Below, in pieces: positions 26,269-60,498 of a DNA stretch of 64,000 bases. Both the position numbers and the translations under genes were made by a program. The stretch's first letter is position 1. Each line of letters starts with the position of its first letter. The notes under the pieces are model-generated. The model was not told the origin of the DNA. It was given only the letters and a program-made list of their open reading frames with translations, and ran no database searches. Source of the stretch: a virus; the IMG/VR virus record IMGVR_UViG_3300025120_000040, positions 1-64,000 of that record, one strand, 5' to 3'.

Positions 26269-29200
26269 TTATTCAGGTGCGTTTGTTGGTTCGTTAGCAA
26301 TGAATTTAGCCTGTTGAGTGTTTGAAGCCTGTAATCCTTTACCATCCGCTGGATTACCATCTAGTGCCGTGTACCATACCTGTCCTCTCTTGTGTAAGAT
26401 TTTAACCTGTGTTCCCGATGCTGGCACAGTGCTTAAAGTGACTGCTGTTGTGCTTCCGTCCACAGAGTAGTTAATAGTTGATCCATCCTCGCTAGTAAGC
26501 AACAATCGTTGGCCACCAATGAATATGTCTAACTCACTAGCAGAGGCTGGGGTTTGTGATAGTGCAAACGTCAATGTACTGCCGTCACCTGTGAAAGTGT
26601 TGGTGTGTACTGTGTCCGCATAAGGGATGGTTTGAGTACCAGACGCATCTACCACTTCAGTGCCTGATCCATGCTCCTTAATTCCTGTACCAAGTGTTCC
26701 ACGTCTTAATTGTCCCAACGTGTTACTTGATTTTGTAAAATATTCTATTCTCTCTTTGTCTATGAAAATGACACCTGGAGTGTTTGAAGAAGCATCTGGT
26801 ATTGGTAAAACACTTTCGTCTTCCACAGTTATGGTCTGTGTTCCTGCTGTCATATCTACAGTTAATTTTGTTGTTGACGTTTTACTAATACGTTTGTAGA
26901 ACGTCCTGTTCATCATATCTTTGAATATCCTGAATCCTGTGGACCCTGTCGCTGATTCAAGTGCAAAGTACATGACATCTAATCTATCCGATGATGTGAT
27001 AGTCTTGCCCGAAACTGTTATCGTGTTGCCACTTGCTACATAATCTGTTCCTTGTATCAATTGCTCACCATTCAACCAAACAAAAGTGTATCCTGCATGT
27101 AACACATCGAATCTAAGTTTGAATACTCCGCCTGTTCTGCCTTCCAACACTTCTCTTCTCTGTTTCATGCCCAACGCATTATTGAACGTTGTTACACTGA
27201 TGATGTCATTTGCAGTCAAACTGTAAGGAGATGTTATCGCACTTGGTACCAATACTACGTCGTTACCTGAGTTGAAGTACTGATGATCTACCAATGTCGA
27301 TATACAGATTACATCTGTTGTTGTTGGAACAGATGCACTTACGAATTCTATGTTGTTGTTTCCTACATCAACTGTGTAATGTGTGTTCAAATCTTTCTTG
27401 GTTCCGTTGACATAAACTTCAACCTGGCTTGCACTTGAAATTGTTTTGGCTGGATCAACAGTAGAGTCATCGCCTAGTCCTGATACCACACCATATGTGT
27501 AAGTGCTTCCGTCACCAACATAGTAGGTGTTGTCTGGTCCACGTAGTACCCTTCCGTTCACTTCAACCGTTGTCAATCCTGAGAATGGTCCTATCGCACC
27601 AGGTGGATATGTCAACGTGTGTCTGTTAGTCGAACCATCATATGTTATTGATTCATTTCTCACACTGGCATAACTCCTTGTCGATGTTGCTGACTTGTTG
27701 AAACCTGCTATCTGTATGTAAGAACTTGCGGCAGGAGCCGAGTCAAACACAACTGTAATCGTATTAGCAGTAGTGGTTGTTGCGTATGCTGTTGTAGGCA
27801 CGCCATCCACTGTAACATATAAGTCAGATGATGTTGAATCTAGATTGAACTCACCTCTTGTAGAAGTCAAGAACGTAGTGGTACTATCATCTCCAGTGAA
27901 AGTGTTCAATACTCTGTAGTTCTCACCTGAAATGGCAAATACCTTGGTTGATATTGTGCTGTGATTGGCAGGTGCTGTGTCGAATGTAATTGTTTTATTT
28001 GCAACATCAATTGTGTAATCAGATACTGTTGAATCTAATGCACTACCTTTCTGCACCACGCCATTGACTGCAACAGTCACTGACCCTAGTGTGCCAGGAT
28101 AGTCTCCTATGCTGAATGATGTTGTGCTTCCGTTACCTCTGTGATTCATCTCACTTATAAATGGCACACCAGACTCTGGTGATGTGTAAACTTTTATGTC
28201 TAACGTGTCAAACAACTGGCCAGGTACTACCTCTTCTGGTGCATAACTTGTGTCCGGAGAAATAAAATCATCTCCCTCTAATAAGATATCACTAGGTGCG
28301 TGTCCCAGTGCTGATGTGAATAGACCACCTTTAACAATTGAATCTAAGGTTCTGTCATCTGTTGGTGTCAACACACCATCGTCATCGAACGGGATGAACT
28401 CTACCAAAGCGTTCTCTTCTGGTGTCTCGCTGATTGTGAATGATACTGTAGACCCATCACCTCTGATCACGTCTGACAGTTTTTTCCTTGAGCTGTCGTC
28501 CTGTGTTAGATACACTTGATACACTTCACTACTTGTAGGTGCTGTGTCAAATGTGTACGCCGCTGTAGAGCCATCTGCCCTGAAGGCTTTAACTTTTGAA
28601 TCGCCATAGTTGTCCCAAGAGAAATCATACCAACCCGCTTTGTCCCAACCTGCTTCTTGATTGAATAGTAATCCTGTTACCATTGTTCCGCCGTAGTCGA
28701 CTCCTGTCATCACTTGGTCAAGTTCGTTACCTGGCATTCCAGATCCTGGCGTGTAGAAACCCTTTGTTCTGTCCGCCGCGGTAAGTCCGGTCTCATTGCC
28801 GTATATTTTGTATACGCTTCCTATGTTGTCGTCGAAGTCTGTGCTTGACGTAAATGCGTTTGTAACTTTGTAAAGTCCATTGTTGTATCTCAATAGGTCA
28901 TTGTAGGCATAGGCTGTTGATGCCGCCCAGTCCACAACTCTAGAGGTGCTTGATACCCTGTCAAATTTGATCGTTGTATCAAAGTCTCTGACCAAGTCGT
29001 TGTTTAAGTTAGCATATGCTTTAGCAGTGTCTGTTGGTGTTGTACCATCTGTCTTACCGCCCGATAACACAACTGTTGGTGTTGCAGTGTAATTTGCACC
29101 AATACCTGTCACCGTAATTTTTGTTACTGCACCGTCTTGTATAATTGCTGTTGCTGTAGCGGCCGTTGTTGTCGGTGTCACATACATCTTGAATGTTCCA

Positions 29201-32200
29201 ATTTTGTCACCCTGTGCTTCATTTACTGATGCTGTTGGGCCATAGAAAGTTTCTGTGTAACCTTCAAATGTATAATCTTTCGTAGTGCCTGATCCTGAAT
29301 TTTGTGTGTCATAAATCTCGGCCTGTTTTTGACTCGTGAACAACGGATAGTAATACCCAAACTGTCCACTGGTTGATCCTGATGCACTCGTGGCCTGTAA
29401 CTGGAAAGGTCCTGTCGATCCTGTAGTACCTCCGAGTATGCTCACTGTTGGAGCGACTTCATAACCCGAACCGCCTGCTGTGACAGTTATAGTCTGGACA
29501 TACTTCTTGTGGTAGTCATACCACATTTGATACGGATACTCTGTTAATTTGGCAGTATCAGAGTTAACATTCAAACTTCTTATTTTGCCTGTTGCTGTAT
29601 CGTAAAAAGTAGGATTGTCAAAATCTGAGAATATTCCGTCCTGTGTCTCTGTTTTTTCATAGCCCAATTTATATTCTCTCAATTTGGTGTGGAAGGGTTT
29701 TACTTCGTTTATGTAACTCTCTATCCAACTATCAGTGCCTTTGGTGTAAGTTTTTCGTTGATCTAGTTTTCTAACAGAGTTTTTTGCATTTATGAATGAT
29801 GTTTTAAACATCCAGTCTACATATGTTTGCTCTGCAAGTACTTTCCTTAATCCAGTAAAGAACAGTGTGTTGTATTCTCCAGCAAGATCATTAATGAATA
29901 AATCATCTCTCAATGCAGTCAGGACTTTTCTTGTCTCTATACTCGGCTCTTGGTCAAAGAAGTTGTCGTCAAAATTATCATCACCGGCAAAACCTGATGC
30001 ATCCTGTGAATAATCATAAAGTTTAGTGCTGAATCTGATTGTTCCATTCTCTGTTCCAACGTTTGTCCACCCTGTAGCAGTCTTCATAAACAATTTCCAA
30101 CCGCCTGTGTCGGCACTAGTAACTTTTACATGTTTACCTACAGCAAGATCCAGTGAGTCTAACTCGTATTGAAACGTTACCTGTTTATCAATTTTTGTGT
30201 TCTCATCATGGAGCATTCCATGTATAGCAGGATCAGTACCATACCAATCTGTGTAACTCCAGTAAGCGGAAGTGTTGTATGTCTGTAATTTGGTCCTTGT
30301 GAATTCTGTTCCGTCCCATTGGTATATTGCCCAATAGTTGTTCGCTGTCTCATCTGCTTTGACCAAGTACTTCACTGTCCCTGAAAGATCTGCGGTGTTA
30401 AGGTAAGTCAGTTCAGCATATGTGTCTACCGAAACGTCCCACTCTAGGCTCTGTGCTGTTGGCTCCGGTTCCGAACTATCGAGGTTTGTAAGATTTATTT
30501 GTCCAACTAACTGATTTTTTTTCAGTACCGTGTTTGCGTAATCTATTATCTCTGTCAATGCGGCATATCTGTCTACGTACCAGCTCTGCCTAGGCCTGAT
30601 ATTATTACCATATCTCTCATTGAGAGGGAGAGCTAGATCTGGTACTACATCTCCTGTAGAATTTTTTCCTGTCAACGAGTCCCACCAACGTGTCTCAATC
30701 TGCAGTGATGGTCTGAAGTCGGCATCGCCTTCCCTGACTAGTTTCCAAACACTGTGAGAATCACCCTCGAACGTGTTTGTTCTAATATCCATGTTCAGTA
30801 CTGTGTCGTCGTTGGTTAGATTGCTAATGTTATTCAGTATAAATTTATTGGTGTCTGTCACAGAATAATATTTGTAGTCAAATGCTCTAGGGTTTGCAAT
30901 TAGGTTGGCAACAAACGCTACCGTGTTCTTCCTGTGTGTGTTATTCGGCAATGTTGTCTTGCCTTTTACCCAGTAGTAATAGAAGTTAACAAATTTGTCT
31001 AATCTCGAATCATATTTCTGCATCACTGTGTATTGTGAGTCGTCACTCGGTAGTAGTTTTGACTCTACCCATTCATAGACATCTATGCTCGAACCTGGGA
31101 ATGTCTGCCCCCAATGATTCACTTTATATTCCTGTGTGTCTTGCTCGTACCACAGCCATTTCACTGTTGACAGATCCCACCATACTTCACCTATGTGTGT
31201 TTCCGCCCATGGTGTCTTGGTATTTGCATTATCTCCGGTATTGTATACAGCAGGATCCCATGCTGTCTTGATATCTATTTCTCTGTCTGCTAGTCCCAGT
31301 ATCCTACCTTTGATAGGATCGTACAAATCATAGTAGTCTTGTAATTGTTTTGTCTTTTTGTTGAATTCAAAAACTTTGCCCAGTTTGTCTGTGTCCATCA
31401 GTGCTGTTTCCGTCACAAGGTTTTTCCAAGCGTACTCGCCATTTACTGTGAGATCATACTGTGCTACTGACCCGTCGTTGACTATTTTTGTGCTTCCGTC
31501 TGCTGTTGTGTTCCCGTCGTCTGTCGGTGCGCCAACAAATAGAGAGTTATCAATCATACACACACCACGTCCAAAGTCGTCGTTCTCAGACATGTTTGTT
31601 GATGTCATTGTGTCGTCTATAATAAATTTAGTGTTGTACATCGTGGCAGTGAATGCACCTCCGGAATCAGTGTTGTCGTCCACTATAGTAGTGTCTTGTA
31701 AGTCAAACGTGGTCTCACCTGAGTCAAAATTTATTTCTGTTGTACTTGCGAAGTTCTCAGCACCTATCACTAATCTTGTACCATCGTTATTCAAATCAAG
31801 ACTTGTGCCAAACTTCATGTTAGTGCTAGAACTAGGTGCACTTATAGTCTGTTGTAAAGTATATGTGTTTGTGGAATCGTCTGCATTCCATTTGTAGTAA
31901 TAGATAGCACCCGCATCTGGATGTGCTGTGCCGTCAACGCCCGGTGCACCAATTATCAATGTCGTGCCGTCCTTGCTCATTGCTATCGAATCACCAAAAG
32001 CAGTGTTTAAGGATGACCCGTCACTTGCCACACCTGTTATGGTTTGTGCCAGTGCAAAAGAATTCTGTGTACTTCCGTCGTTGCTCTGTGCTGTCTTTAT
32101 GAATATCTCTACCTTGCCTGCGTTGCCAGGTGCTAATGAACTCACAGCAAGGATATCACCGTTGTCGTTCGCGGCTATCCTGTGGCCAAATCTCTGTCCT

Positions 32201-35200
32201 TCGCCACCGTCTGGTGCTTCTATTGTGTAGTCTTGTGTCCAAGTGTCATAGGTAGATCCGTCTGCACCTACTCCCCAAGTGTACAAGTACACTCTACCTC
32301 TGTCAGTGCTGTGTCCAGGTGCTGACACAAATAGATACTTGTCCGGTGTGGTTCTAACTGATGTTGCTCCAGGTTCTGCTACCTTGTGTGCCCAACCAAA
32401 ATTCTGTGATGCCGCGTCAACTGGCGGACTGATTGTGTTCAGTATTCCGTACTTGAATGTGTTTGGATCCCATATGTAAAGTTTGACCAATCCTGAATCG
32501 GAAAATCTTGTACTCCCATCCAAACCTATGGTGTTAGTGTAAGGTGCTCCTGCAACTACAAAGTTTTCATCAGTACTGATTGACAGCGATTCACCAAGTC
32601 TACTGGTGTTGTCATCGTTTTCGGTCATCGTTACTGTTGACTGTGTCTGTACAGTTGTTCCTGCTTCCGTGGAAGATCTAAACAGGAAGTGTACCTCACC
32701 TTGTGCTTTACCTGGTGCAGATGCAATCACTGTCCTTCCATCATTACGTGCCACGATCCTGTGTCCAAACTCCTGTTCCGTTGTGGTGGCGTCTGGTGAT
32801 AGTACTAAAGACGATGTATAAGGGTCTTGCTTCTCATACACCCTCCATAAACCTGAACTGTCTGCATCTGCAAACGCCTTGTCTCCTGGCTGTTCAATTG
32901 CATCATTCTTGTCAGTGTACTGATCGTGTTCCAACAAGTCATTGACATTGTCCATCGACGACAATCTTACTGATATAAATTTGTACAGGTTACCGTAACT
33001 GTCTGCGGTTGACCCATCCTCCAGTGCAGGAATAAATCCTACGTTACCTGAGTAGTCAATGATCACTGTCTTATGGCTTGGTGCAGAGCTAACTTGGTAC
33101 GTACCATTTAGCGTTGCTTCCTCACTGTTTGATATTGCAAAGTAATCGGCTTGTGTTGTTGTTGTGCCTGCACTTAAATTGTGAGACCCTGTGAATGTGA
33201 TCTCTAACTGTGTTGAATCGTTGATCAGTTCTAACGTTGCTATCTTTATGTTAGCACTTGAAACCCTTAGAACGTCCCAATCCTTGTTGCTCTTGCTGGC
33301 CACCCAAACTAGATCATTAGGTCTTATAGCATTTATGTCTATGTCTAATATCTCGTCAATGTTGAATACAGTGTGTTGCACCTGTGTAGGTTGAGGATAT
33401 CCTGCTGTCTTAAAGATCTGTGCTGTGTCTCTGCTCACTCCTTGCTTACTGTAATCTAATCTTTTGAATGTCGTGGATGCTGTGTATTCTACTGGCTTGT
33501 AGTAAAAATTATCTTTTGTAATAGCACTTGATCTCGCATATCCGACTGCGTCTGCCGAACTATCCAATAATTCTATACTTTGTGGGTTCGCTGTAATTTC
33601 TGTATCTTTCAACACTACTTGTACGTTTTCAATAGAATCTGTGTTTCCAAAGTTACCTGTCCTGATCATCCATTCCGGATATAGATCTAAATTAATATCT
33701 TCACCCTCATATTTGGCTTTCAATATTTTGTCTATTGCATTCTGAGTGCCTTTCTCTCTGATGTAACCTTGATAGAACTTGTATTGTGACACATCATTTA
33801 CGAATAAATTTTCCAGATAGTCTCTGCTTTGATACCCTGTTAACCTCTGTGCTAGTTGTTGTTGTGATTCGTCGAAGTTGTTGGTCTCTAGATCGTAGAA
33901 ATCATTAAACTGTGAGATCTTGTATTCAAAGTTAGGAATCAGTTGTGGTGCTGGTTTTTTGTCTTTCAGCGTCCAATTAGCAGTTTCAAAAGTTGCACCT
34001 GAATTATGATTTGTTTTGGCAACATAGAACTTACCTTGGTACTCGACACTGTCTCCAATCCTGTAATCGGTGTTTGCTATCCAATACGTGACCTGTGCGG
34101 CATCAAATACGAAACCAGGAGCATAGTAATCTCCGTTCCACCCTGCGGTCTTCCATCCTACCAACTTCAATCTCTGCTGTCTGAATCCAGTAAATGGATC
34201 GTATATAATATCAGCGAAAACTGTTTTGTTGTCAAACAATAACACATGTTCTTTCTGTACTGTATTCAATGCGATGTTGTAAAGACCCACTGTGTCTGAT
34301 TTAATTCCTAACTCAAATGTCTTACCTATACGTTTGGTTGATATATCACCAATATCGATCTTCCTACCGCCTGAATCTAATATAGAATAATCACCAGATA
34401 AATTACGTAGTTTACCAACTATGCTATTGTTAGTGTCTAGTTCAAATCCGTCCGCGGCCGGTGAAACTGTTACAGCACTGCCTGGCGCCCATTCTTGAGT
34501 TGTCCAGAATAAAAACTCTCGTACTGCGTTTTGCCAATTTAGTGTTTCTTTAATCTCATTTGAAAATTTGTCAAATCGGAATCCTTGACCTTCCAACCAA
34601 TGTCCGTATCCAAACAAGAAATCGGCAACATCCTGTGTTGTGTTAAACACATAACCATATGGTATGGTCTGTGTAGTTTCTTGGTATGCAGTGTACTGTT
34701 CGATCACTAGTGATCCTTTAACAGATACTGCGTTCGCTGTTGTTGTCTTGACAGGATAGTTAAAATTAAAATATGGTTTGGCTGTGCTGTACCCCAACAC
34801 CTTGTAACCACCCAATACCGTTGACCCATCATTGCTGATGTCTGTGTTCTTCTCTATAAGCACACCAGAATACTGGAAACTCTCCACAGGGTTTGATGTC
34901 CTAAACAGTATCTTGTAATTCTCATCTGGAATAAATTTAGATCCGGATGCTGATCCTGGAGACACACTGTCCGTTAGGATCTTTATGTTGTCCTTATCTG
35001 TGAATCCTCCCAACTTGTATGCTAACTGAACACTTAGGTTCTTCATCTTGTTGTAGTAAAAAACCTCAGTGTCTAAGTTCCTCGAAATCAAATAGTTGAG
35101 AACGAAAGGTTGGTACCCTGCCGTTTGATATCTAGTCGTTACACCTGTTGTTAGATCTGTTTCCGTTTCTAAATGATATTTTGCTGTTGCTAATGTTTTC

Positions 35201-38200
35201 CTAATACCTGTGTCTTTATAGATTTGGTTGTTTGAAACATTTGTTGTAAGTCTAGACGGATCAAAAAGATTGGAAAAGAATTTTGCTGGTTTGGTTAGAG
35301 CGAGTAATTTCATTGCAGTAAACGGGAATGAACTGGATCTTCTCCATGCCGTCTCTGCTGGTGCCTGATCACCAAACTTCCAAGAATTCTGCCTTCCTGG
35401 TATATCGAAGTTGTCGACAAGTCCTGCCGCTAATGGATCTAGAAGATTACCTGACGCATCAACGGGTAGGTAATTTCTAATTAGAGGTTTCCCATATCTA
35501 CCTGGCTCTGTCGCAACAGCGTTCCATAACACATCATTGCCCGAAGTATAAGGAGCCGTTCCGTAAGTTGTGTCCCAGTCAGTGGGTTTTTCTGAATGGC
35601 CCAACATCTCCCACGGTCTAATATGTGGAGAATCCGTGTCATAAAAATATTTGTATATACCCCTCCAGTATCCTGGCAGGTTCTCATTTATCAGTCTACC
35701 TTTTGATCTAGCGTAGTTGTACGTAAACGGTGATCCTTCATTGAACGCTGTGTTGTTGATATACTGAACATTGTTACGTCCCGCCCACTGGTAGAAGTCT
35801 GTTCCCATCACGTTGTCAACTTCCTGTAGTGTGTATTCCGTAGATGTAAAAGCACTAGGCAACACATCATGCATATCCACTAAAGTAGCATCGTAGGTAA
35901 CTTTTATATTGTTGTAAATTCTTTTTTCAAGTTCCAATATTAAATCATCACGTTCGTCGCCATACGCTTTTATGATTGATCCATCGTGTTTCCGGATAAC
36001 GGCCGTGTCAGTCAAATAAGTTGTGTCTGTGAATGTCTCAGGAGTGAACCTGGGATACATTCCAAGTTTAGTCGGAGAAGGTGGCATGTAACTGCCCACA
36101 GTGTCGGCATAATCCTTGATTACAATTTTGTCTCCCTCTGCTAATGTTTTACTAATGTTGATACTGTCATCTGTTGTGCTGAAAGTGTAATCTGTTCCTA
36201 GTAATAGTTGAACATCATTGAGGTAAACGTATACTGCCCTGTTGCTTAATGTTGTAATATTGTGTTGCGAGTCTAGTGCATAATCTTTTTGTGACTCACC
36301 CATCACAGTGTATGATCTTGTTGAAACATTTTCTCCCCAACCCACCATATCCTCATAGAAGAACGGGAACGAACTGTTCCTGCCTGGTGTGATTGCTGTG
36401 ATTATCTCATCAACTCTATTAGCGGCGTCTCCTTCGTAAGCCGTACCTGTAGCGTGTGTAAGGAATGCGTTGTACCACTTCTCATACTCCTGATTCACAT
36501 ATTCTGTTGCCGTAACAAAATTGGCTTCCTGATCTATAAGGCCAAATATCGCAGGTAGCAATGGTCCTTCGTGCTGATGTATGCTACCGCCCTTTAATCT
36601 CGCATCTGGTTTATCTCGTAAATTTGAAACTCCAGGAATGGCACCAGTGACATCTTGATTTTTATCAAATATGTCTCGCACATGATTCAGTATCTGTCCA
36701 AAAGTAAATGTGCCCAACTGCTGATTTAGACTGTTAGTTGCCAAGTTCTCCGGTATCTCATATACCCCCTTGTCAGCAATCTTATCAGCACTGCTGTATC
36801 CTGCTATTCTGATCTGTTCGTCAATTTCTAGTGCCTTGTTAAATTTTATGTATTTGTTTTTTGTTCCAGTTTCCAAAGTGTAATCGGTGATCCTGGTTTT
36901 CCTTAATCCGTTTACTGAAACAGACACTTCTAGGTCTGTCAGTTCCGCTGAGTTCTTATAGAAGTCTATAGGGAACAACTGTTTTTCTATCGTATCGACA
37001 GTGAAGGTCCTGATAACACGCTGTTTACTTTCGCTTGTTCTTTTTATCCAAGAACTACGTGAATTATGTGTTGCTCTACCTGTTGTGTAGTGTAAGTGTC
37101 CTTCTGCTAGATTTTTTGTCAGTGTCTTTGCACCACTCTTGTACGTGAATGTTCCTGCTGTGTGATCCGATTCGAAGACTATGTCTCCAACATTGTTAAC
37201 CGTGTTGTACTTGACCTTGATGCCTAACACAGTGTCTGTTGTTGCTGTATCCGATGTAGAGAAAGAGAACACTTTTGCGCCTGCGAAAGTTGAATTAGGA
37301 TATGTTGTGGCATCATCGAACGAAGTATGATCAGTGTCCCACATGCCAAACAACGGCTGTTGGTTTACATCTGTTTTCTGCTGTGCTTCTATAAAAGATT
37401 CTGTTGTGCTGTCATAACGAAAAGTCTTTCCTTGATTTGTTGTACCAAACTCTATGTATATTGAATCGTCACTTGTTGGTGTGGCATCCGATGACTCGGT
37501 CAGGTTGATAACCTGTGTGCTATCTCCCGCGGTCACAAAGTTCACATCATATATCTTATTTTTTACTGTGGGATCTGTGTCAGCCGCGAACACAACTCTC
37601 ATTCCGGTTTGTAGTGACAGTCCGTCAATAATGTACCCTGTCTGTTTAACCACACTACTGAAAGCGTCCGTGGTCACTGTGTCATACAGTGTGACCGATT
37701 TCTTGGCCACCGTTCCGTGATTGTACAGTGCCAACCCTGAATCGAATTCTATTATCGGTCTCTTCGCTCTGTCGTCCTCGTTCAACACCGGAGTGAAACC
37801 ACTCACTTTTGCTGTCTCTTCGATTACAGATCTGTGGAACCATCTGTTGTACCTCGACCATGCGTTCCTGTCAATTGAATCTCTCTTGATGGTTATGTAA
37901 TCCTTGGTTTCTGGTAGGTAGTATGCCTTGGCATATGGTCGTGAATCGTATCCTGCTTGATCATACAGTATCGTAGATTCTGTAGCATAAGTGCCGGGAG
38001 TCATCATGTCCTCGACATCAGTAAGCGTTATGGCATCACCTACGCCCTCTACGTAATATTCCTTGTCCTGATAATCTGTTGCCACTAGAGAATTCGTAAA
38101 TTTGATCTTCATACCGTTGGACAGGTCCAGAGTCCTCAGGCTGTAATTCTTGGTTCCGACTATGTCGTCTTCTACGTTGATTGCCGTTGTGCTAGATGCA

Positions 38201-39066
38201 TCTTTTATCTGTAGTATTCCATACATGGCGTCATGATTGCCACATTGATAATATAAAGTGTCGGGTGCACCTGTTGTTGGCACCGTAAATGTAACTGTAC
38301 CATAGTCCGTACCGTTGTTTGTGACGCCTGTGTCAAAAATAGTCGATGTTGATCCATCCGCTGAAACCTTGTCCTTGTATGGTTCTGTCATTATCCATAA
38401 CGGATGTCCTTTTGCATTTACGTTAAACTTGTAAGTGTTGCCCCTGTAAAGAGTTAGGATAGGATTGTCTTCATTTTCTCTGTGTGTAAAGTTATAGGCA
38501 CCTTGTGCTAGATTCTCTACTGAATATTCCGCTACCGCACTTGGTCCAACTGAATCTATCTCGATCGATCCAGGCCCTTCTGGCATCCAGTAGTACTCTC
38601 TGTAGTTGATTAACTTGTCATAATCAATAGCAGGATTCCAACTATAAACTGTTTCCTTGTTTAATCTGTCATGGTTATTAATCTTACCGCCTAAATATTT
38701 TATTTGGTTGATGTAGTCGTCATATGTTCCTGTGAATTTGACCTGGTCCTCTGGATTTACTGACGTTGTATCTCTATCTGTGTAAGTGACTGTAGGCTCT
38801 AACTGATATGCCATCCTGTCTCTGCTGGTTGCACTTATGTACCTATCGTTGATATCTCTAGTGTAAGCGTCCTGTCTACCTACGTAACCGTCCAGTCTCT
38901 CCAATGAACCTTTCTGTACCAAAGGATCCATAGTGCTTGAAAGGAATCTCTGGTTGGTATCTGTCCTGTAGAAAGCAGGAAGATGCTGTACAGTACGTCT
39001 GTACTCGTTGTTGCCTTGCTTGACTACTTCGTTATTGGTTAAAGAGTTTGTGGGAGTGTCTGCCAT
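26269..39066 (-). CDS. Giant multidomain virion protein, 4265 aa, with cupredoxin-like and FG-GAP domains
   Basis: The gene follows gp6 and precedes the fibres, as do giant virion genes of other marine T4-like phages. Residues 1-160 form an N-terminal domain. Residues about 185-290 look like a cupredoxin with His221, Cys275, His278 and Met281 as possible copper ligands. CBM-like aromatic units such as W-I-A-N-T-D-Y-R-I-G-D-S-V-E-Y occur near the middle. Residues about 2095-2515 carry seven FG-GAP-type blades (FGHRI, LGESL, FGWAH, FGHRI, FGDSI, FGTSL, FGRGV, each with an AP/GA turn). The last third is beta-sandwich-like repeats (DGSTxxFxxS..., V-x-V-N-G). No frameshift was seen. It is probably an adhesive or long side-fibre protein. 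Confidence 0.8.
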   Translation of the reverse strand: MADTPTNSLTNNEVVKQGNNEYRRTVQHLPAFYRTDTNQRFLSSTMDPLVQKGSLERLDGYVGRQDAYTRDINDRYISATSRDRMAYQLEPTVTYTDRDTTSVNPEDQVKFTGTYDDYINQIKYLGGKINNHDRLNKETVYSWNPAIDYDKLINYREYYWMPEGPGSIEIDSVGPSAVAEYSVENLAQGAYNFTHRENEDNPILTLYRGNTYKFNVNAKGHPLWIMTEPYKDKVSADGSTSTIFDTGVTNNGTDYGTVTFTVPTTGAPDTLYYQCGNHDAMYGILQIKDASSTTAINVEDDIVGTKNYSLRTLDLSNGMKIKFTNSLVATDYQDKEYYVEGVGDAITLTDVEDMMTPGTYATESTILYDQAGYDSRPYAKAYYLPETKDYITIKRDSIDRNAWSRYNRWFHRSVIEETAKVSGFTPVLNEDDRAKRPIIEFDSGLALYNHGTVAKKSVTLYDTVTTDAFSSVVKQTGYIIDGLSLQTGMRVVFAADTDPTVKNKIYDVNFVTAGDSTQVINLTESSDATPTSDDSIYIEFGTTNQGKTFRYDSTTESFIEAQQKTDVNQQPLFGMWDTDHTSFDDATTYPNSTFAGAKVFSFSTSDTATTDTVLGIKVKYNTVNNVGDIVFESDHTAGTFTYKSGAKTLTKNLAEGHLHYTTGRATHNSRSSWIKRTSESKQRVIRTFTVDTIEKQLFPIDFYKNSAELTDLEVSVSVNGLRKTRITDYTLETGTKNKYIKFNKALEIDEQIRIAGYSSADKIADKGVYEIPENLATNSLNQQLGTFTFGQILNHVRDIFDKNQDVTGAIPGVSNLRDKPDARLKGGSIHQHEGPLLPAIFGLIDQEANFVTATEYVNQEYEKWYNAFLTHATGTAYEGDAANRVDEIITAITPGRNSSFPFFYEDMVGWGENVSTRSYTVMGESQKDYALDSQHNITTLSNRAVYVYLNDVQLLLGTDYTFSTTDDSINISKTLAEGDKIVIKDYADTVGSYMPPSPTKLGMYPRFTPETFTDTTYLTDTAVIRKHDGSIIKAYGDERDDLILELEKRIYNNIKVTYDATLVDMHDVLPSAFTSTEYTLQEVDNVMGTDFYQWAGRNNVQYINNTAFNEGSPFTYNYARSKGRLINENLPGYWRGIYKYFYDTDSPHIRPWEMLGHSEKPTDWDTTYGTAPYTSGNDVLWNAVATEPGRYGKPLIRNYLPVDASGNLLDPLAAGLVDNFDIPGRQNSWKFGDQAPAETAWRRSSSFPFTAMKLLALTKPAKFFSNLFDPSRLTTNVSNNQIYKDTGIRKTLATAKYHLETETDLTTGVTTRYQTAGYQPFVLNYLISRNLDTEVFYYNKMKNLSVQLAYKLGGFTDKDNIKILTDSVSPGSASGSKFIPDENYKILFRTSNPVESFQYSGVLIEKNTDISNDGSTVLGGYKVLGYSTAKPYFNFNYPVKTTTANAVSVKGSLVIEQYTAYQETTQTIPYGYVFNTTQDVADFLFGYGHWLEGQGFRFDKFSNEIKETLNWQNAVREFLFWTTQEWAPGSAVTVSPAADGFELDTNNSIVGKLRNLSGDYSILDSGGRKIDIGDISTKRIGKTFELGIKSDTVGLYNIALNTVQKEHVLLFDNKTVFADIIYDPFTGFRQQRLKLVGWKTAGWNGDYYAPGFVFDAAQVTYWIANTDYRIGDSVEYQGKFYVAKTNHNSGATFETANWTLKDKKPAPQLIPNFEYKISQFNDFYDLETNNFDESQQQLAQRLTGYQSRDYLENLFVNDVSQYKFYQGYIREKGTQNAIDKILKAKYEGEDINLDLYPEWMIRTGNFGNTDSIENVQVVLKDTEITANPQSIELLDSSADAVGYARSSAITKDNFYYKPVEYTASTTFKRLDYSKQGVSRDTAQIFKTAGYPQPTQVQHTVFNIDEILDIDINAIRPNDLVWVASKSNKDWDVLRVSSANIKIATLELINDSTQLEITFTGSHNLSAGTTTTQADYFAISNSEEATLNGTYQVSSAPSHKTVIIDYSGNVGFIPALEDGSTADSYGNLYKFISVRLSSMDNVNDLLEHDQYTDKNDAIEQPGDKAFADADSSGLWRVYEKQDPYTSSLVLSPDATTTEQEFGHRIVARNDGRTVIASAPGKAQGEVHFLFRSSTEAGTTVQTQSTVTMTENDDNTSRLGESLSISTDENFVVAGAPYTNTIGLDGSTRFSDSGLVKLYIWDPNTFKYGILNTISPPVDAASQNFGWAHKVAEPGATSVRTTPDKYLFVSAPGHSTDRGRVYLYTWGVGADGSTYDTWTQDYTIEAPDGGEGQRFGHRIAANDNGDILAVSSLAPGNAGKVEIFIKTAQSNDGSTQNSFALAQTITGVASDGSSLNTAFGDSIAMSKDGTTLIIGAPGVDGTAHPDAGAIYYYKWNADDSTNTYTLQQTISAPSSSTNMKFGTSLDLNNDGTRLVIGAENFASTTEINFDSGETTFDLQDTTIVDDNTDSGGAFTATMYNTKFIIDDTMTSTNMSENDDFGRGVCMIDNSLFVGAPTDDGNTTADGSTKIVNDGSVAQYDLTVNGEYAWKNLVTETALMDTDKLGKVFEFNKKTKQLQDYYDLYDPIKGRILGLADREIDIKTAWDPAVYNTGDNANTKTPWAETHIGEVWWDLSTVKWLWYEQDTQEYKVNHWGQTFPGSSIDVYEWVESKLLPSDDSQYTVMQKYDSRLDKFVNFYYYWVKGKTTLPNNTHRKNTVAFVANLIANPRAFDYKYYSVTDTNKFILNNISNLTNDDTVLNMDIRTNTFEGDSHSVWKLVREGDADFRPSLQIETRWWDSLTGKNSTGDVVPDLALPLNERYGNNIRPRQSWYVDRYAALTEIIDYANTVLKKNQLVGQINLTNLDSSEPEPTAQSLEWDVSVDTYAELTYLNTADLSGTVKYLVKADETANNYWAIYQWDGTEFTRTKLQTYNTSAYWSYTDWYGTDPAIHGMLHDENTKIDKQVTFQYELDSLDLAVGKHVKVTSADTGGWKLFMKTATGWTNVGTENGTIRFSTKLYDYSQDASGFAGDDNFDDNFFDQEPSIETRKVLTALRDDLFINDLAGEYNTLFFTGLRKVLAEQTYVDWMFKTSFINAKNSVRKLDQRKTYTKGTDSWIESYINEVKPFHTKLREYKLGYEKTETQDGIFSDFDNPTFYDTATGKIRSLNVNSDTAKLTEYPYQMWYDYHKKYVQTITVTAGGSGYEVAPTVSILGGTTGSTGPFQLQATSASGSTSGQFGYYYPLFTSQKQAEIYDTQNSGSGTTKDYTFEGYTETFYGPTASVNEAQGDKIGTFKMYVTPTTTAATATAIIQDGAVTKITVTGIGANYTATPTVVLSGGKTDGTTPTDTAKAYANLNNDLVRDFDTTIKFDRVSSTSRVVDWAASTAYAYNDLLRYNNGLYKVTNAFTSSTDFDDNIGSVYKIYGNETGLTAADRTKGFYTPGSGMPGNELDQVMTGVDYGGTMVTGLLFNQEAGWDKAGWYDFSWDNYGDSKVKAFRADGSTAAYTFDTAPTSSEVYQVYLTQDDSSRKKLSDVIRGDGSTVSFTISETPEENALVEFIPFDDDGVLTPTDDRTLDSIVKGGLFTSALGHAPSDILLEGDDFISPDTSYAPEEVVPGQLFDTLDIKVYTSPESGVPFISEMNHRGNGSTTSFSIGDYPGTLGSVTVAVNGVVQKGSALDSTVSDYTIDVANKTITFDTAPANHSTISTKVFAISGENYRVLNTFTGDDSTTTFLTSTRGEFNLDSTSSDLYVTVDGVPTTAYATTTTANTITVVFDSAPAASSYIQIAGFNKSATSTRSYASVRNESITYDGSTNRHTLTYPPGAIGPFSGLTTVEVNGRVLRGPDNTYYVGDGSTYTYGVVSGLGDDSTVDPAKTISSASQVEVYVNGTKKDLNTHYTVDVGNNNIEFVSASVPTTTDVICISTLVDHQYFNSGNDVVLVPSAITSPYSLTANDIISVTTFNNALGMKQRREVLEGRTGGVFKLRFDVLHAGYTFVWLNGEQLIQGTDYVASGNTITVSGKTITSSDRLDVMYFALESATGSTGFRIFKDMMNRTFYKRISKTSTTKLTVDMTAGTQTITVEDESVLPIPDASSNTPGVIFIDKERIEYFTKSSNTLGQLRRGTLGTGIKEHGSGTEVVDASGTQTIPYADTVHTNTFTGDGSTLTFALSQTPASASELDIFIGGQRLLLTSEDGSTINYSVDGSTTAVTLSTVPASGTQVKILHKRGQVWYTALDGNPADGKGLQASNTQQAKFIANEPTNAPE

Positions 39067-52237: not shown

Positions 52238-53314
52238 ATGTTTTGCACACAACCGTTCAATCATATAGATGTTATTGTAGAAAACAGCAAAGTGATGTTG
52301 CAACCATGTAACGTTTGGGGCTCAAAAAAATTCAGCATAGAAGAATACAAAAATAGCATATCTCAATTAAAAGATACCATGGCAAGTTCCTACCATTATC
52401 CAGGATGTAGGATCTGCTGGGCTGAAGATAAAAAAAATATCCGATCCAGACGTGTGGCACAGAACCAATTCTCAGAGGATAACGAGTTATCAACACAAAA
52501 ACTACAAAGTCTAGGTGTGAGATATGGTACCTTGTGTAACAGCAAGTGCATGATTTGTAGTCATACTAGATCTTCGTCCTGGGTACCAGATGCAGAAAAA
52601 TTAGGGATCAAAATAGAAGAACAGTACAAGTACAAAAAAAACTTACTGCCCGGGGTTGATATTTTCTTTGATAATTTTGATCTAGATGATTTGAGATATG
52701 TGGAATTCCACGGCGGTGAACCGTTGATGCAAAGTTATCCTGCTGATTTCCTAAAGAAGATAAAAAAATTAGATCAGTTAATTGTGAAATTCAACACTAA
52801 CCTGACTGTGCTACCGTCGAACGACTTAAATGCATTATTGAAGAAATGTAAAAGAGTAGATTTCTTGTTAAGCGTTGACGACATAGGAGAGCGTTATGAG
52901 ATGTTGCGATATCCGGGTAAATGGGATATATTTGTAAAGAACATGGAAATAATAAAAAAACAAAATTATAGAACAATGGCGTACAATGCACTATCGTCAT
53001 TGAACATTTTTTATGCCGTAGAGTTTTACAAATGGGCAACGAAAAACTTTGGCACTGAGGTGCATTCTCAGTTTGTAGTTGACCAGGAACACTTAGATAT
53101 AAGTTATCTCCCGCAACAAGCCAAAAACATAGTATTAGAAAAAATAAAAAATTATAAAGGTAAAATATTTGATTCGATAAGGCAACAGTTGAACATACAA
53201 AAAGAAGACCGTAAAGAGGAATTATTAAAGTACATCAAAGATCTAGATCGTATTAGAAAAACAAACTACCCGGTCACTTTCAAGGAATGGTACACAATAT
53301 TAAACAAAAGATAG
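52238..53314 (+). CDS. Radical SAM protein with N-terminal twitch-like domain (copy 6)
   Basis: 358 residues. The cluster motif CNSKCMIC has Cys100, Cys104 and Cys107, followed by RSSSW; GGEP is FHGGEPLMQ. The N-terminal auxiliary module is FCTQPF (Cys3), QPCN (Cys24 only, without the second Cys) and GCRICW (Cys57, Cys60). GERYEMLRYPGKW is the signature shared with copies 1 and 7. It starts 2 bases after the gp46 stop, so it is read out with the recombination operon and looks inserted there. Substrate unknown. Confidence 0.85.
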   Translation: MFCTQPFNHIDVIVENSKVMLQPCNVWGSKKFSIEEYKNSISQLKDTMASSYHYPGCRICWAEDKKNIRSRRVAQNQFSEDNELSTQKLQSLGVRYGTLCNSKCMICSHTRSSSWVPDAEKLGIKIEEQYKYKKNLLPGVDIFFDNFDLDDLRYVEFHGGEPLMQSYPADFLKKIKKLDQLIVKFNTNLTVLPSNDLNALLKKCKRVDFLLSVDDIGERYEMLRYPGKWDIFVKNMEIIKKQNYRTMAYNALSSLNIFYAVEFYKWATKNFGTEVHSQFVVDQEHLDISYLPQQAKNIVLEKIKNYKGKIFDSIRQQLNIQKEDRKEELLKYIKDLDRIRKTNYPVTFKEWYTILNKR

Positions 53315-55044: not shown

Positions 55045-56077
55045 ATAAGAGAGAAAAAAGCTCGGGCAGATGATCTGCAAATTTCAATTTACTAAACCTA
55101 TCTTGTCTTTCTAAATTATCCATCATCTTTACCGACGATGACGAGGTCCCTCTCCACTCTACCGTTTTCTTTTTAAAGAACATAGGATTATTTTTTTCAA
55201 CCTCTGTCCCGACATGTTTAGCAAGATTATCGTAAGCAAACTCCGGAGGGTAAGTTACTAGATTCAGTTCTACCTTACGGGGGAGGAGTTTAAAAAGATT
55301 AAGCACGATATCATCGATGTAAAATACGTTCAAGTTGCTAATCGTAACGTATGTCGATAAATGGTCAATTCCAAAATTTTTAATGTACTGTTTGATATTG
55401 TCTCGTACCTGATTCCATTTTGCTGGTTGTCGTATGTATTCAAATATTTTTCCATATCCATCAAGAGAGAAACATATGTTAAACTTTTTAAAACTAGATA
55501 GCAACTCTATCTGCTTCTGTGTCAGTTCCACTGTTCCATTTGTTTGTAAGGAGAATGATTTATCCTTGTCCAGTATCGATAGGTAATTCCATAGTGATGC
55601 AGACTTTAGTGTTTCTCCGCCTATAAACTCTATGTGCTTAATTTTGTGTATATCTTGTACATCAGACGCTTTAATATCTGTTATTACTTTCATGTCTTTG
55701 AATTTCTCGGCTCTAACTTGTGACAGATCAAAATACACATTTTGATATTTCTTCAGCCATGACGTGCTTACCATTGGATTACATGTCACGCAGTAAAGAT
55801 TACACACATTACCAACAGGTATCACTGCCGTACTTACTGACCGTTCCGTCTGTGCTAGATTTTCTTTATATGTTTCGTTGGCTATTTGTCTTTTTGACTT
55901 TATCCCCAATGCCTCTGTTTTCCAACAGCCGTTGCAGAACCTACTTTGGCGATTGTTTCTGTGGTCATCTAATAATTGATCTGTGTCCCTGTCTGCTTTG
56001 AAATCACCTAAAATACAACAAGGCGCATCAAACTGGTAGTCTTGATTTATAAATGGTAGTACACACTTATTCCCCAT
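55043..56077 (-). CDS. Radical SAM protein with N-terminal SPASM/twitch-like domain (copy 7)
   Basis: 344 residues, the smallest of the set. The cluster motif CNLYCVTC has Cys92, Cys96 and Cys99, followed by NPMVSTSW; the GGEP motif reads FIGGETLKS, with Thr for Pro. The N-terminal module is KCVLPF (Cys5), APCC (Cys20-21) and FCNGCW (Cys48, Cys51). GKIFEYIRQPAKW is the signature shared with copies 1 and 6. It ends in the shared terminator and its start overlaps the GIY-YIG gene by 11 bases. Confidence 0.85.
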   Translation of the reverse strand: MGNKCVLPFINQDYQFDAPCCILGDFKADRDTDQLLDDHRNNRQSRFCNGCWKTEALGIKSKRQIANETYKENLAQTERSVSTAVIPVGNVCNLYCVTCNPMVSTSWLKKYQNVYFDLSQVRAEKFKDMKVITDIKASDVQDIHKIKHIEFIGGETLKSASLWNYLSILDKDKSFSLQTNGTVELTQKQIELLSSFKKFNICFSLDGYGKIFEYIRQPAKWNQVRDNIKQYIKNFGIDHLSTYVTISNLNVFYIDDIVLNLFKLLPRKVELNLVTYPPEFAYDNLAKHVGTEVEKNNPMFFKKKTVEWRGTSSSSVKMMDNLERQDRFSKLKFADHLPELFSLL

Positions 56078-56480
56078 TTTTTAATATCCCTTTTCCATGC
56101 ACACGCACACGGATGTGTCCATTGTAGTATTCGTTGGTCTCTAAAACCTTACGTGAAAATTGTTCACGTGCCTCCACGTAGGACAATTCCGATTTGGACT
56201 TGCAGTAGAAAAGTATCTCTCTTGCGAACTTGTCTTTACCAATTTTGTTGACATCGATCGTGAGGTCATCACTGGATCCATAGTAGTCCTGCCAGTCAGA
56301 GTCCACTTTGTACCTACGCTTGTTCTTTCTGCCTTTGAGGGGTGGTCTGGATCTTTTGAATCTCGCAAGTTTCTTGCCTATGTACATCCTGCCGTTGGTT
56401 GTATTCGTTATGAGATACACGAATCCGACTATGTCTTCTGGAATGTTGGTAATTTCTTTTCCTTGGTACGTCCAATGCAT
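56067..56480 (-). CDS. GIY-YIG endonuclease-like protein
   Basis: I chose the ATG at 56480 (MHWTYQGKEI...), because the open frame upstream is low-quality sequence that overlaps the putative RNA. The product has 137 residues. The GIY-YIG motif is present as GFVYLI-N9-MYIGKK, followed by a basic loop (KLARFKRSRPPLKGRKNKRRYK) and the expected later glutamate (YVEAREQFSRKVL). Such proteins in T4-like phages act as free-standing homing or structure-specific nucleases. Its location next to a structured RNA and two radical SAM genes may indicate that it helped move this block. Confidence 0.65.
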   Translation of the reverse strand: MHWTYQGKEITNIPEDIVGFVYLITNTTNGRMYIGKKLARFKRSRPPLKGRKNKRRYKVDSDWQDYYGSSDDLTIDVNKIGKDKFAREILFYCKSKSELSYVEAREQFSRKVLETNEYYNGHIRVRVHGKGILKNGE

Positions 56481-56503
56481 GATGGTATTTAAAGCCAAAA
56501 AGA

Positions 56504-56530
56504 TTGACTCTAAATTAAAACTCATATAAA
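56504..56530 (+). promoter_or_regulatory. Candidate promoter for the structured RNA
   Basis: TTGACT (56504-56509) and TATAAA (56525-56530) are separated by 15 bases, shorter than the optimal 17. It reads into the structured region beginning near 56535. Tentative. Confidence 0.3.
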
Positions 56531-56534
56531 CAAG

Positions 56535-56970
56535 TGCGATAGGCAAACAAAAATTTCTTAAAAATTTCCAACAGGCAAACATAGCATCGCAACCAGTGAG
56601 CAAGGAAATGCGGCTAACAAGCGACAGGTGAATCCTTAGATGCACACAGCAAAAAATGATGGGGCTCTTAGAAAAAGTTAATCCCCAGGTCGACCAAGAA
56701 CTATTATACAAGGGTTTGGTGGACTCGCGTTGTAATGAATGAGCAAATGGGTACAGCACAACCGCCCAACTCCGGTAGCGATGTATAGTGACTGCGAACT
56801 CACCACAGGGTTCAAGTCGGTTCGGCTAGAAATAGCCGAATTGTGACTGCTCATCTACCACAGGGCACGCAATATGCGTGTACCGTTAATTTTTACTTTG
56901 CGTAAGCGTAAATTGAGAAAACGAAACGAGCGTAAGCGAAGTTTCAGATGGCGTAAGCCGTCTCTGACAA
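56535..56970 (+). ncRNA. Putative large structured non-coding RNA
   Basis: This 494-bp gap (56481-56974) has no convincing gene. On the plus strand it holds perfect or near-perfect hairpins: TGCGAT/ATCGCA (56535-56540, 56586-56591) enclosing two AGGCAAACA copies; TGGGG/CCCCA (56660, 56683); TTCGGCTA-GAAA-TAGCCGAA (56821-56840); CACGC-AATAT-GCGTG (56866-56880). Three hairpins capped by GC-GTAA-GC follow, with GCGTAAGC at 56900, 56930 and 56951. A 23-nt element GTGACTGC-N6-ACCACAGGG occurs twice (56788, 56843). All four GNRA loops exist only on the plus strand, so that strand is probably the RNA. I do not recognise tmRNA, RNase P or an intron core. Confidence 0.55.
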
Positions 56971-57347: not shown

Positions 57348-57578
57348 TTAGAAGAAAGGTTGACCGCTTTTTTTAGTAGTTTCCATGTTCTCTTTTACCA
57401 GTTGTGCTACCACACCACGTTCCTCCGGCGAAAGATTAAGTGCTTCCTGCCAGGTGATGCCGCCACGCATGAACCAACACACTTTCATTGTTTCGAGTTT
57501 GAGATTCTTGACTTCGTTGTCGAAGTCCTTTAGGTAGGAAACAATTTCAGAGTTCCCCTTTGTCAGTAGCGTTACCCG
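57348..57578 (-). CDS. -1 frame extension of the gp26-like protein, 76 aa
   Basis: This frame is open from a TGA just upstream of the slippery site to 57348 and encodes well-formed protein sequence (NSEIVSYLKDFDNEVKNLKLE, MKVCWFMRGGITWQEALNL). No ATG, GTG or TTG occurs before residue 31 of the extension, and that ATG has no ribosome site. A -1 slip at 57578-57584 would fuse it to the 283 residues before it, giving about 359. T4-like phages encode small hub-assembly proteins such as gp51 nearby; this could be that counterpart. Alternatively, it may be a 46-residue protein starting at the internal ATG. Confidence 0.6.
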   Translation of the reverse strand, partial: RVTLLTKGNSEIVSYLKDFDNEVKNLKLETMKVCWFMRGGITWQEALNLSPEERGVVAQLVKENMETTKKSGQPFF

Positions 57579-58426
57579 AAAAAATTTGAGCTGTCAAATG
57601 TCACCGGTACTTCGAACGAAGTTGGTGCACCCTTCTTGATCTGATCTTCTGTGGTCTTGAGTTTCAACGGTGGTATCTGTGCTTGTACCCTTAACTCGGA
57701 AAGTTTTTCCTGTATCTCCGTCACTGTCTTTGCATCTGCATTGTTGCAGAATTCGATAATCTGTGCTCTGTCCACCACGGTGTTACCTTCCGGTGTTGTG
57801 ATGGTTTTGATCGAATCGACCAATAGTGAGAAGTTGACCATGTTCAGGGTTTGGAAACTTTTTGCGAATGCCGACTGCTTTGCCTCATCGGTCATTGTGC
57901 TGTTGTCTATTGTTCCGTACATCTTCTGTTGCTCGAACCTTGCAATCTGTATCTTGGTAAGTGATTTATATGTCAGCGGTTCTATTTTGATCTTGAATTT
58001 TGTTGAAGTCGTGGTCTCATCCACTATTTCGGTCCTGCCGAGATCTTCCAGCAGTGCGGGTAGGTTGATAGTGTGTGATTGCTCCTCATTGGTCACCGGC
58101 ACACGATAGTTCACATCCATGGTCTCACCGTAGGTCGCGATCCTGATCGCCAGCAACACAGCATCCGTGTCGTAGTTCACCATCTTCCATGGGTCTAACA
58201 TGTTAGGCACACAGCTCTTGATAACATCCACTGTGGATTGCCCGTTGATCATGGCGTCTGGTGTTTTGAATGCTAACTCGTCCTTCACAGTCATTGGCAG
58301 GATTGGTATCTCACCTGTCTCTGTGGGAGTGAATGCCTCCTTGGGATAGTATCTGCCACCACTGGGCAACTTGATGTATATGGCCGGTTGCCTGTAGTAC
58401 TTCTGTAATGGGTTAGTATTTTCCAT
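57572..58426 (-). CDS. 26: Baseplate hub assembly protein gp26-like
   Basis: 284 residues. It resembles the T4 gp26-type baseplate/tail-assembly family, seen in YYRQPAIYIKLPSGGRYYP, then EIPILPMTVKDELAFKTPDAMINGQSTVDVIKSCVPNM and AVLLAIRIATYGETMDVNYRV. The family has a helper role in hub or tail assembly and does not normally remain in the virion. The tape-measure gene is divergent, and this neighbourhood resembles tail-assembly chaperone loci. The late promoter at 58472-58479 drives it. The last two codons before the stop form a slippery heptamer. Confidence 0.7.
   Translation of the reverse strand: MENTNPLQKYYRQPAIYIKLPSGGRYYPKEAFTPTETGEIPILPMTVKDELAFKTPDAMINGQSTVDVIKSCVPNMLDPWKMVNYDTDAVLLAIRIATYGETMDVNYRVPVTNEEQSHTINLPALLEDLGRTEIVDETTTSTKFKIKIEPLTYKSLTKIQIARFEQQKMYGTIDNSTMTDEAKQSAFAKSFQTLNMVNFSLLVDSIKTITTPEGNTVVDRAQIIEFCNNADAKTVTEIQEKLSELRVQAQIPPLKLKTTEDQIKKGAPTSFEVPVTFDSSNFFG
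57578..57584 (-). promoter_or_regulatory. Candidate -1 ribosomal slippery heptamer
   Basis: The minus strand reads T TTT TTC in the zero frame, an X XXY YYZ heptamer of the U-UUU-UUC type, one codon (GGG) before the stop. AAATTTT just upstream also fits. The -1 frame continues for 76 codons. No strong downstream stem was seen. Confidence 0.6.
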
Positions 58427-58509: not shown

Positions 58510-60498
58510 ATGGACAGAGAATTAGAACAATTATTGAAAGAGATGACCGCAGAGCTCAAGGACCTTACCAGGGTCTTGCGAGGATCTACAAAATCTGCCA
58601 TAGACGGAACCAAGACAATCAAGCAAGAGACCAGCGCCAGGAAGATGGCTATAGCACAGTTAGAGGCCCAGCGAACAGATCTCTTGAAAAGAGGCAAACT
58701 TACCAAAGAACTCAACGCTGAAATTGACGATTCCATAGAAGCATTGGAGAAATTCCAGAAAACGGCCAAAGCAGGAGCAGGGGTGATGGGTCTGGTAACC
58801 AAGGCTCTTGGCTTTTTAAAGGACGCCATTGTAAGTGTTGCCACAGCAGGTATAAAGACAGGTCTAGCATTTTCAGACACAACAAAATCAATCAGTTCGG
58901 TGGAAGACTTTATAAACGCAGGGTTCGGTGACATACCGGTCCTCGGCAAGATAACCAAGGAACTGGCACGTGAGATAGATTCCAACGTTGAATCATTCAC
59001 ACAACTGGCCAAGACAGGAGCCACATTTGGTAGTTCCATAGTGATGCTACGTAGGGCGGCGGGGGACGCAGTGATGCCTCTGGGCAAGTTCACGGACCTG
59101 ATCGGAACCAACTCTGGACTGTTGGCAAAATTCTTTGGATCAGTAGACCAAGGGGTACCACAGATAGTGGGACTAACCTCAAAACTGAGGGACATCACAG
59201 AAAATGAATTCGCAAAATTTGGTCTGACACTGGATGACACAGCAGGTTACATGACAACTTTCCTAGAACTGGAAAGGGCGAGGGGCAACCTGAACAATTT
59301 ATCGCAGGCACAACTTCTGCAAGGAACCAGGGAGTACACAAAAAATTTAGTTACCTTGAGCAAACTGACAGGACAGAGCGTTGATGAGCTGAACAACCAG
59401 AACATGGCCATGGCCGCGGACGGAGTGTTCCAGTCACAACTTACAAAAATGAATGCCAAGGATGCCAAGACATTGTCACTGGGTGTGAGTGCGTTGCCCG
59501 GACCACTGGCACAACTGGCCAAGGAAGTGATCGGACTGGGTGCACCTATCAGTGATACCAGCAGAGAACTAACTGCTCTATCGGGCGGTGCGTTCAACGA
59601 TGCGATCAAACAATTCCAGAACACAGGAGACCTGGTTGCGTTCCAGAACAGCATCAAGACCATATCAGCCGACGTGATGAAAGACGGTGAGGCATTTGGT
59701 GAGGCCGCACTAGCAGGTGGCGGGTTCGGCGAGGCTTTGAACGCCGTCGTGCAGAGCATAGGTAAAGCGGTAGACCCATCAGTGATACAAACTGAACTCG
59801 AGGCAGTGGGAGACAACATAAAGAATTTAAGGAATATCACCAGTTCATTCGACAGGGTGGCATCCAAACTACAGATAGACAGATTCGAACTGCTGGCACC
59901 TGTCCTGTATGACAACAGTGAAGCAGTTGTGGGATTCACGTCAGCGTTCAACACCAAGATCCAGGACATAGTCAAAGAGGGTGGTGGACTAGACGAGTTC
60001 TATGAGGGACTGAAGAAATTCAAAGACTACCTGGTCACCGGCGATATAAACATATTCAAGAAGGATAAGAAAAAAAAGAAATATGAAGAAGTTGACTTGG
60101 GAGATACTTCCATAGGAGGAGGAATTTCTGCCAATAACGGAACTGAAGGATTCCAAGACTTTGGTTCTGGAACACGAGCAACACTCCATGGGTCGGAGAT
60201 GGTCCTACCCGAGAGGAACGTTGGCGAGTTGTCCAAGCAGTTAGCGGCCGCTGTAAGTCAAATGACTAATAAAACAACAAGTGTGACAAACACAAATACC
60301 ACAGCAGGCGACAGTGTGACGAACAATACCACGTCAATGGACATGACAAAACTGAACGCAAACACAGAACAACTCATAGCCTTGACCGAAAAAACAGCAA
60401 ACCACTTAAATACGCTAGTAACGATAGGTGCTATGACAGAAAAAAATACCAAATCAACAAAGAATAATCTTGCAAACATGGGCGGAAGTCTAGTATAA
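58510..60498 (+). CDS. Tail tape-measure protein
   Basis: 662 residues. It has an N-terminal coiled coil (RELEQLLKEMTAELKDLTRVLRG...), a hydrophobic Ala/Gly/Val segment (GLVTKALGFLKDAIVSVATAGIKTGLAF), long helical repeats of Ala, Leu, Lys and Gln, and a C-terminal FGSGTRATLHGSEMVLPERN motif usual in tape measures. A Thr/Asn-rich segment follows (TTSVTNTNTTAGDS...). The T4 counterpart by role would be gp29 (590 residues). It sets tail length and reaches the membrane at injection. The late promoter lies upstream. Confidence 0.8.
   Translation: MDRELEQLLKEMTAELKDLTRVLRGSTKSAIDGTKTIKQETSARKMAIAQLEAQRTDLLKRGKLTKELNAEIDDSIEALEKFQKTAKAGAGVMGLVTKALGFLKDAIVSVATAGIKTGLAFSDTTKSISSVEDFINAGFGDIPVLGKITKELAREIDSNVESFTQLAKTGATFGSSIVMLRRAAGDAVMPLGKFTDLIGTNSGLLAKFFGSVDQGVPQIVGLTSKLRDITENEFAKFGLTLDDTAGYMTTFLELERARGNLNNLSQAQLLQGTREYTKNLVTLSKLTGQSVDELNNQNMAMAADGVFQSQLTKMNAKDAKTLSLGVSALPGPLAQLAKEVIGLGAPISDTSRELTALSGGAFNDAIKQFQNTGDLVAFQNSIKTISADVMKDGEAFGEAALAGGGFGEALNAVVQSIGKAVDPSVIQTELEAVGDNIKNLRNITSSFDRVASKLQIDRFELLAPVLYDNSEAVVGFTSAFNTKIQDIVKEGGGLDEFYEGLKKFKDYLVTGDINIFKKDKKKKKYEEVDLGDTSIGGGISANNGTEGFQDFGSGTRATLHGSEMVLPERNVGELSKQLAAAVSQMTNKTTSVTNTNTTAGDSVTNNTTSMDMTKLNANTEQLIALTEKTANHLNTLVTIGAMTEKNTKSTKNNLANMGGSLV

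Follow-up and report, generated by a model that had tools for sequence, protein, structure and literature searches.

Near one end of the window, the whole stretch of DNA analysed here (64 kb of a 64,891-base IMG/VR record), a gp26-like gene ends on the minus strand with TCA AAT TTT TTC GGG TAA, and a second ORF overlaps this end in the -1 frame. The question was whether the two are translated separately or are joined by ribosomes that slip at the run of T residues. An initial annotation had favoured a frameshift. Its placing of U-UUU-UUC one codon before the stop of the gp26-like gene was confirmed (Table 1). The 76 residues of the -1 frame, with no ordinary start before residue 31, were also found as described. 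The fusion size of 359 aa was correct (residues 1-283 of the gp26-like protein plus the 76 of the -1 ORF).

We interpreted the locus, which belongs to a large T4-like myophage related to RaK2 and Atu_ph07, as very probably a -1 programmed ribosomal frameshift. Judged from sequence, it would give two proteins, TAC-N (284 aa) and TAC-NC (359 aa), TAC being the tail assembly chaperone. Most ribosomes would follow the gp26-like frame to the TAA and release TAC-N. At AAT-TTT-TTC a minority would move back, with both tRNA-Phe shifting by one base (T_TTT_TTC to TTT_TTT_C). These ribosomes would read 76 more codons and finish TAC-NC. The short and long forms sharing an N domain, as is typical of TACs, are present as an ORF arrangement.

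Table 1. Features of the locus and other genes of the window (positions are those of the window)
Feature	Position	Strand	Evidence
gp26-like frame-0 ORF, TAC-N, 284 aa	57572-58426	-	PF12322, phrog_150, AF2, BFVD
Slippery heptamer T_TTT_TTC (frame 0: AAT TTT TTC)	57578-57584	-	
Frame-0 stop TAA, one codon (GGG) past the heptamer	57572-57574	-	
-1 frame ORF, 76 aa, putative TAC-C domain	57348-57578	-	tblastn relatives, pN/pS, AF2
Block of synonymous conservation past the slip site	57545-57560	-	
Divergent neighbour, 662 aa, virion structural / probable tape measure protein	58510-60498	+	phrog_14121, 7.3e-07
gp20-like portal protein, 576 aa	60505-62235	+	PF07230, 3.1e-109
SegE-like GIY-YIG endonuclease gene	56067-56759	-	
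Radical SAM gene	8600-9775	-	
Radical SAM gene	9763-11043	-	
Radical SAM gene	13646-15013	-	just under Pfam cut-off
Radical SAM gene	52238-53311	+	
Radical SAM gene	55046-56077	-	just under Pfam cut-off
Carbamoyltransferase gene	4918-6387	-	N and C domains both present
4265-codon ORF	26269-39066	-	

The portal protein was nearest to those of Sinorhizobium phage Phosso and Agrobacterium phage Atu_ph07 (52% identity in each case). The order of portal gene, structural protein gene and divergent gp26-like gene is common to RaK2, 121Q, PA5oct, Phosso, CBB and GAP32. The gp26-like gene and the probable tape measure gene occupy different strands and diverge; in the window the former does not lie between tail tube and tape measure genes. 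The initial annotation had described the locus as opposite the tape measure. This was borne out in part: the neighbour is divergent and matched phrog_14121, a family named 'virion structural protein', and its RaK2 counterpart, in the same place, is annotated as similar to a tape measure protein.

Several other genes of the window were noted. Just downstream of the locus is the SegE-like endonuclease gene. Five radical SAM genes, two of them with SPASM domains, occur in this one phage fragment. The carbamoyltransferase, with its N and C domains, is likewise carried by a phage. The 4265-codon ORF is near a baseplate hub/lysozyme-like gene.

The 284-aa gp26-like protein matched PF12322 (1e-12, 48.6 bits; curated cut-off 24.5) and phrog_150, named 'baseplate hub' (6.8e-19). 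PF12322 is also matched by both gp26 and gp51 of T4 (8.8e-64 and 3.9e-52, respectively). Direct hhalign comparison of the N domain with T4 gp26 or gp51 was weak, so the family link to T4 rests on the Pfam and PHROG profiles. A search of PDB sequences gave nothing relevant. Along the 282 positions of phrog_150, gp51 reaches 280 and gp26 ends at 235, about 45 positions shorter. From this coverage (280/282 versus 235/282), gp51 resembles a gp26 that has been extended at its C-terminus. The comparison with G/GT of siphophages, which had been made in the initial annotation, was supported: the two T4 proteins share one family, and the longer of them, gp51, has its extra part at the C-terminus. In T4 the genes 26 and 51 are separate and divergent. 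The alternative frames at the end of T4 gene 26 hold no C domain, and the -1 frame there is gene 25.

The AF2 model of the gp26-like protein had a pLDDT of 86, and its BFVD matches included T4-like baseplate hub (assembly) proteins. The HK97 TAC (2ob9) ranked second among its PDB matches (Z 5.8, rmsd 4.5, 86 residues). A Z of 5.8 is below the safe level for a shared fold, and this match to the model is suggestive. The C domain was modelled as all-helical (pLDDT 88). Its fold had no significant match to any known TAC, and none was among the 12 PDB chains with which it was compared. Searched alone, the 76-aa piece matched no family among the Pfam and PHROG profiles. The alignment of the C domain with the gp51 C-terminus by hhalign fell in the expected place and was not significant (E 0.06, probability 0.9%), and another alignment put the domain elsewhere on gp51. 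Homology between the two was not supported at a significant level. In-silico fusions stopped matching phrog_150 at positions 233-252 of 282.

The chaperone function is an inference. The fusion might be made and yet be a component of the baseplate hub instead of a chaperone, as suggested by the family names ('T4 bacteriophage base plate protein' and 'baseplate hub'). Genes for tail assembly chaperones usually occupy the space between tail tube and tape measure genes. In the distant relatives immuto and SP-15, a gp26-family gene is located between the tail tube gene and an annotated tape measure gene. In Microcystis phage Mel-JY01 it is flanked by the tail tube gene on one side and a large hypothetical gene on the other. 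The two former phages, and probably Mel-JY01, thus carry the gene with its shifted second ORF between tail tube and tape measure, which argues against a hub component. In addition, passages of two papers (PMC12846349, PMC10885494) cite work naming TAC genes in T4-like phages. We consider a hub component unlikely, and we prefer a chaperone made in two forms.

The initial annotation had pointed to conservation of the heptamer and both frames in relatives as the way to check the frameshift. IMG/VR was searched with each ORF, which gave 110 loci, and both genes were present in 100 of them. Relatives of the 76-aa ORF numbered 92 by tblastn in viral_contigs, of which 80 were kept. The set of junctions contained 84 distinct sequences, from 69 IMG/VR contigs (the window included) and 15 named phages. 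S-PM2 was left out, as the region taken from it lacked its gp26.

Heptamer and both frames were found in all 84 distinct junctions. TTTTTTC was in frame 0 in 83, and TTTTTTT took its place in one (RAS14). The second ORF was in the -1 frame in every junction, and the distance from the heptamer to the frame-0 stop ranged from 1 to 11 codons. When the junctions were clustered, the heptamer was present in all of the 48 clusters at a 70% identity cut-off and all of the 21 at 50%. The junction sequences are related, and for this reason no P value is given for the whole set.

The bases around the heptamer were also constrained. The codon preceding it encodes N, S, H, R, D, T, Y or A, yet it ends in T in 84/84 junctions; the codon use of these genes would predict 49%. 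The pair TTT-TTC was fixed in 83/84, and phenylalanine elsewhere in these genes is 62% TTT. Within the clade of the window (27 members), TCA-AAT-TTT-TTC was without synonymous variation (25/25 of the serine codons, then 27/27 for each of the others). The heptamer itself is common in the window, with 25 observed against 19.3 expected. Its presence was therefore not used as evidence, only its conservation. A chance heptamer was rejected on that conservation, the heptamer being in frame in 84/84 junctions.

Selection on the second ORF was measured on both sides of its first possible start. The first ATG, GTG or TTG of the -1 ORF in the window is the ATG at residue 31. For codons 4-30, which precede it, pN/pS was 0.29 when read in the -1 frame, against 1.13 and 2.06 for the remaining two. 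For codons 31-76 it was 0.24 in the -1 frame. Between the slip site and the first ATG, protein-like evolution is confined to the -1 frame. Counted from the slip site, the second ORF was 76 codons long in 68/84 junctions, despite the variation of 1-11 codons in the frame-0 tail.

These data also bear on another possibility, a small independent gene in place of a fusion: the second ORF might have a start of its own, or ribosomes that terminate at the upstream stop might reinitiate on it. A start overlapping the frame-0 stop, or within 4 nt of it, was found in 15/84 distinct junctions. The overlap is ATGA in Atu_ph07 and Phosso, and TAATG in 121Q, XbC2, BF and Kaldavass. Among the records of the 15 named relatives, 13 give the second ORF as a hypothetical protein of its own, two (PA5oct and RaK2) omit it, and none joins it to the gp26-like gene. 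On the other hand, ATG, GTG and TTG were absent from its first 18 codons in 25/84 junctions, and the second ORF of PA5oct has no start codon at all. Protein selection sets in immediately past the heptamer, at a point that in the window precedes every start codon, and the heptamer is retained even where a start overlaps the stop.

The initial annotation had named two observations that would count against a frameshift, a start codon with ribosome site for the second frame in relatives or a missing slippery site. Neither was found: no start was conserved in the second frame, and the slippery site was present in 84/84 junctions. Because start codons are not conserved, coupled reinitiation is not the common mechanism, and an independent start or coupled translation was rejected as the general explanation. 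A separate gene is in our judgment very improbable. Coupled reinitiation may add free C domain in some of the phages with ATGA or TAATG overlaps. Elements that might stimulate a -1 frameshift were sought around the slip site.

Stems were tested against synonymous-codon shuffles of the same ORF, with seven control positions. A stem with its 5' arm 3-7 nt past the heptamer was obtained at p<=0.05 in 21/48 clusters; at the control positions the number was 0-6/48. With one mismatch allowed, the stems were 16 bp in L060 and L063, 13 bp in Atu_ph07, L058, L070 and L100, and 11 bp in L091 (L numbers denote individual loci). Strong stems with the 5' arm fixed at 3-7 nt past the slip site were those of L060 (5001-5090), L063, L070, L091, L100 and L111 (Atu_ph07). 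The 3' arm was at clade-specific distances, and two-sided base changes were seen in 3/4 of the clade-specific stems examined. No single consensus RNA structure was found for all relatives; the stems are specific to clades.

The long form might also arise by slippage of RNA polymerase on the six T/U residues, with no slipping of ribosomes, and a homopolymer run is indeed present in every relative; but a run of six is short for efficient slippage by a bacterial polymerase, the run ends in C in 83/84 junctions without growing and is always in the X_XXY_YYZ phase, and the stem enriched in relatives has the spacing expected of a ribosomal stimulator (3-7 nt downstream); we consider polymerase slippage very improbable. 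Ribosomal slippage at the heptamer remained the preferred reading.

The window differed from the relatives with stems. No stem was found at the expected position (55/60 shuffles were as good), and its marine relatives were likewise without one. The fold of the whole region of the window was mildly stable (z -1.7, with 14/200 shuffles as good). A Shine-Dalgarno-like tetramer was absent from the 30 nt upstream in 80/84 junctions and present in 4/84. The clade of the window (the window and 26 relatives) did have a block of synonymous conservation past the slip site. The block reads GGGGGACTCTGA in most members, and Ser10 is TCT in 27/27. No structure that would account for the GGGGGACTCTGA block was found in this clade.

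By the sequence tests applied, the site qualifies as a genuine signal for -1 programmed frameshifting, with the exception that the window itself yielded no stimulator. The frameshifting itself and its efficiency are inferred. The site most probably yields two forms of a tail assembly chaperone.

A search with the Mel-JY01 protein found six distant members of the family, Mel-JY01 among them. In these six (L125, L140, L141, L142, L143 and L144) the overlapping C-domain-like ORF is in the +1 (or -2) frame instead. The overlap in Mel-JY01 adjoins AAC TTT TTT TGG. We lean slightly towards the following picture. In the -1 group the 5' arm of the stem would have stayed fixed, and the 3' arm would have been founded anew at several places. 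The marine clade, including the window, would dispense with the stem or use an element not yet recognized. One T4-like family would contain three modes of producing the two chaperone forms: a -1 frameshift at T_TTT_TTC in the RaK2/Atu_ph07 group and the window, a +1 or -2 shift in at least six distant relatives, and the separate gene pair 26/51 in T4. The clades with and without a downstream stem form a natural experiment on what a U_UUU_UUC site requires.

The initial annotation had called the mechanism unusual for T4-like phages. This was corrected, since it is not unheard of there. A passage of the PRFect paper (PMC10885494) cites Vladimirov, Gautam and Davidson 2022 for T4-like phages with a short gene and a fused long gene. 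The paper on phage Adele (PMC12846349), in a similar passage, credits the same work with poly-T signals for a -1 shift in the TAC-N genes of such phages. In view of that work, as these passages report it, the kind of frameshift is known, and the RaK2-like group may be partly covered there. No description of a frameshift in RaK2-like phages was found in the literature searched, which covered few subscription journals. The frameshift is unmarked in the records of all 15 named relatives. According to a passage of a 2016 review (PMC5009743), the G/GT frameshift of lambda is conserved widely in long-tailed phages, 'except T4'. The present locus would extend this classic recoding to a large group of T4-related jumbo phages. 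That T4 gp26 and gp51 serve as the short and the long chaperone is an explanation that can be tested.

On the model of lambda gpG/gpGT, the N part would cover the tape measure protein, with the C domain bringing in subunits of the tail tube; neither form of the chaperone would stay in the finished tail. The slippery site of lambda is G_GGA_AAG, whereas that of the window is U_UUU_UUC and its protein belongs to PF12322. The two also differ in position, as the lambda gene is just before the tape measure gene and the window gene is on the strand opposite to the probable one. They are alike in having one start, a short and a long protein, a -1 slip late in the first ORF and a link to tail assembly, as far as the relevant passages of the review describe lambda (PMC5009743).

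T4 gp26 and gp51 share a Pfam and a PHROG family with the window protein. T4 differs in having two separate divergent genes in place of the overlapping frames of the window, and it would obtain its two products from genes 26 and 51. There is also a likeness in kind to the TAC-N and TAC-NC of T4-like phages of Vladimirov, Gautam and Davidson 2022, in so far as passages of PMC10885494 and PMC12846349 convey that work. The Vandenendeviridae and Andersonviridae, as described in passages on phage Adele (PMC12846349), also have a myophage TAC with a -1 shift at a T run (invariant GTTTTT), and there too annotations usually list the second ORF as a hypothetical protein of its own. They differ, by the same account, in belonging to other phage families, in using another slip motif and in having the TAC directly before the tape measure gene.
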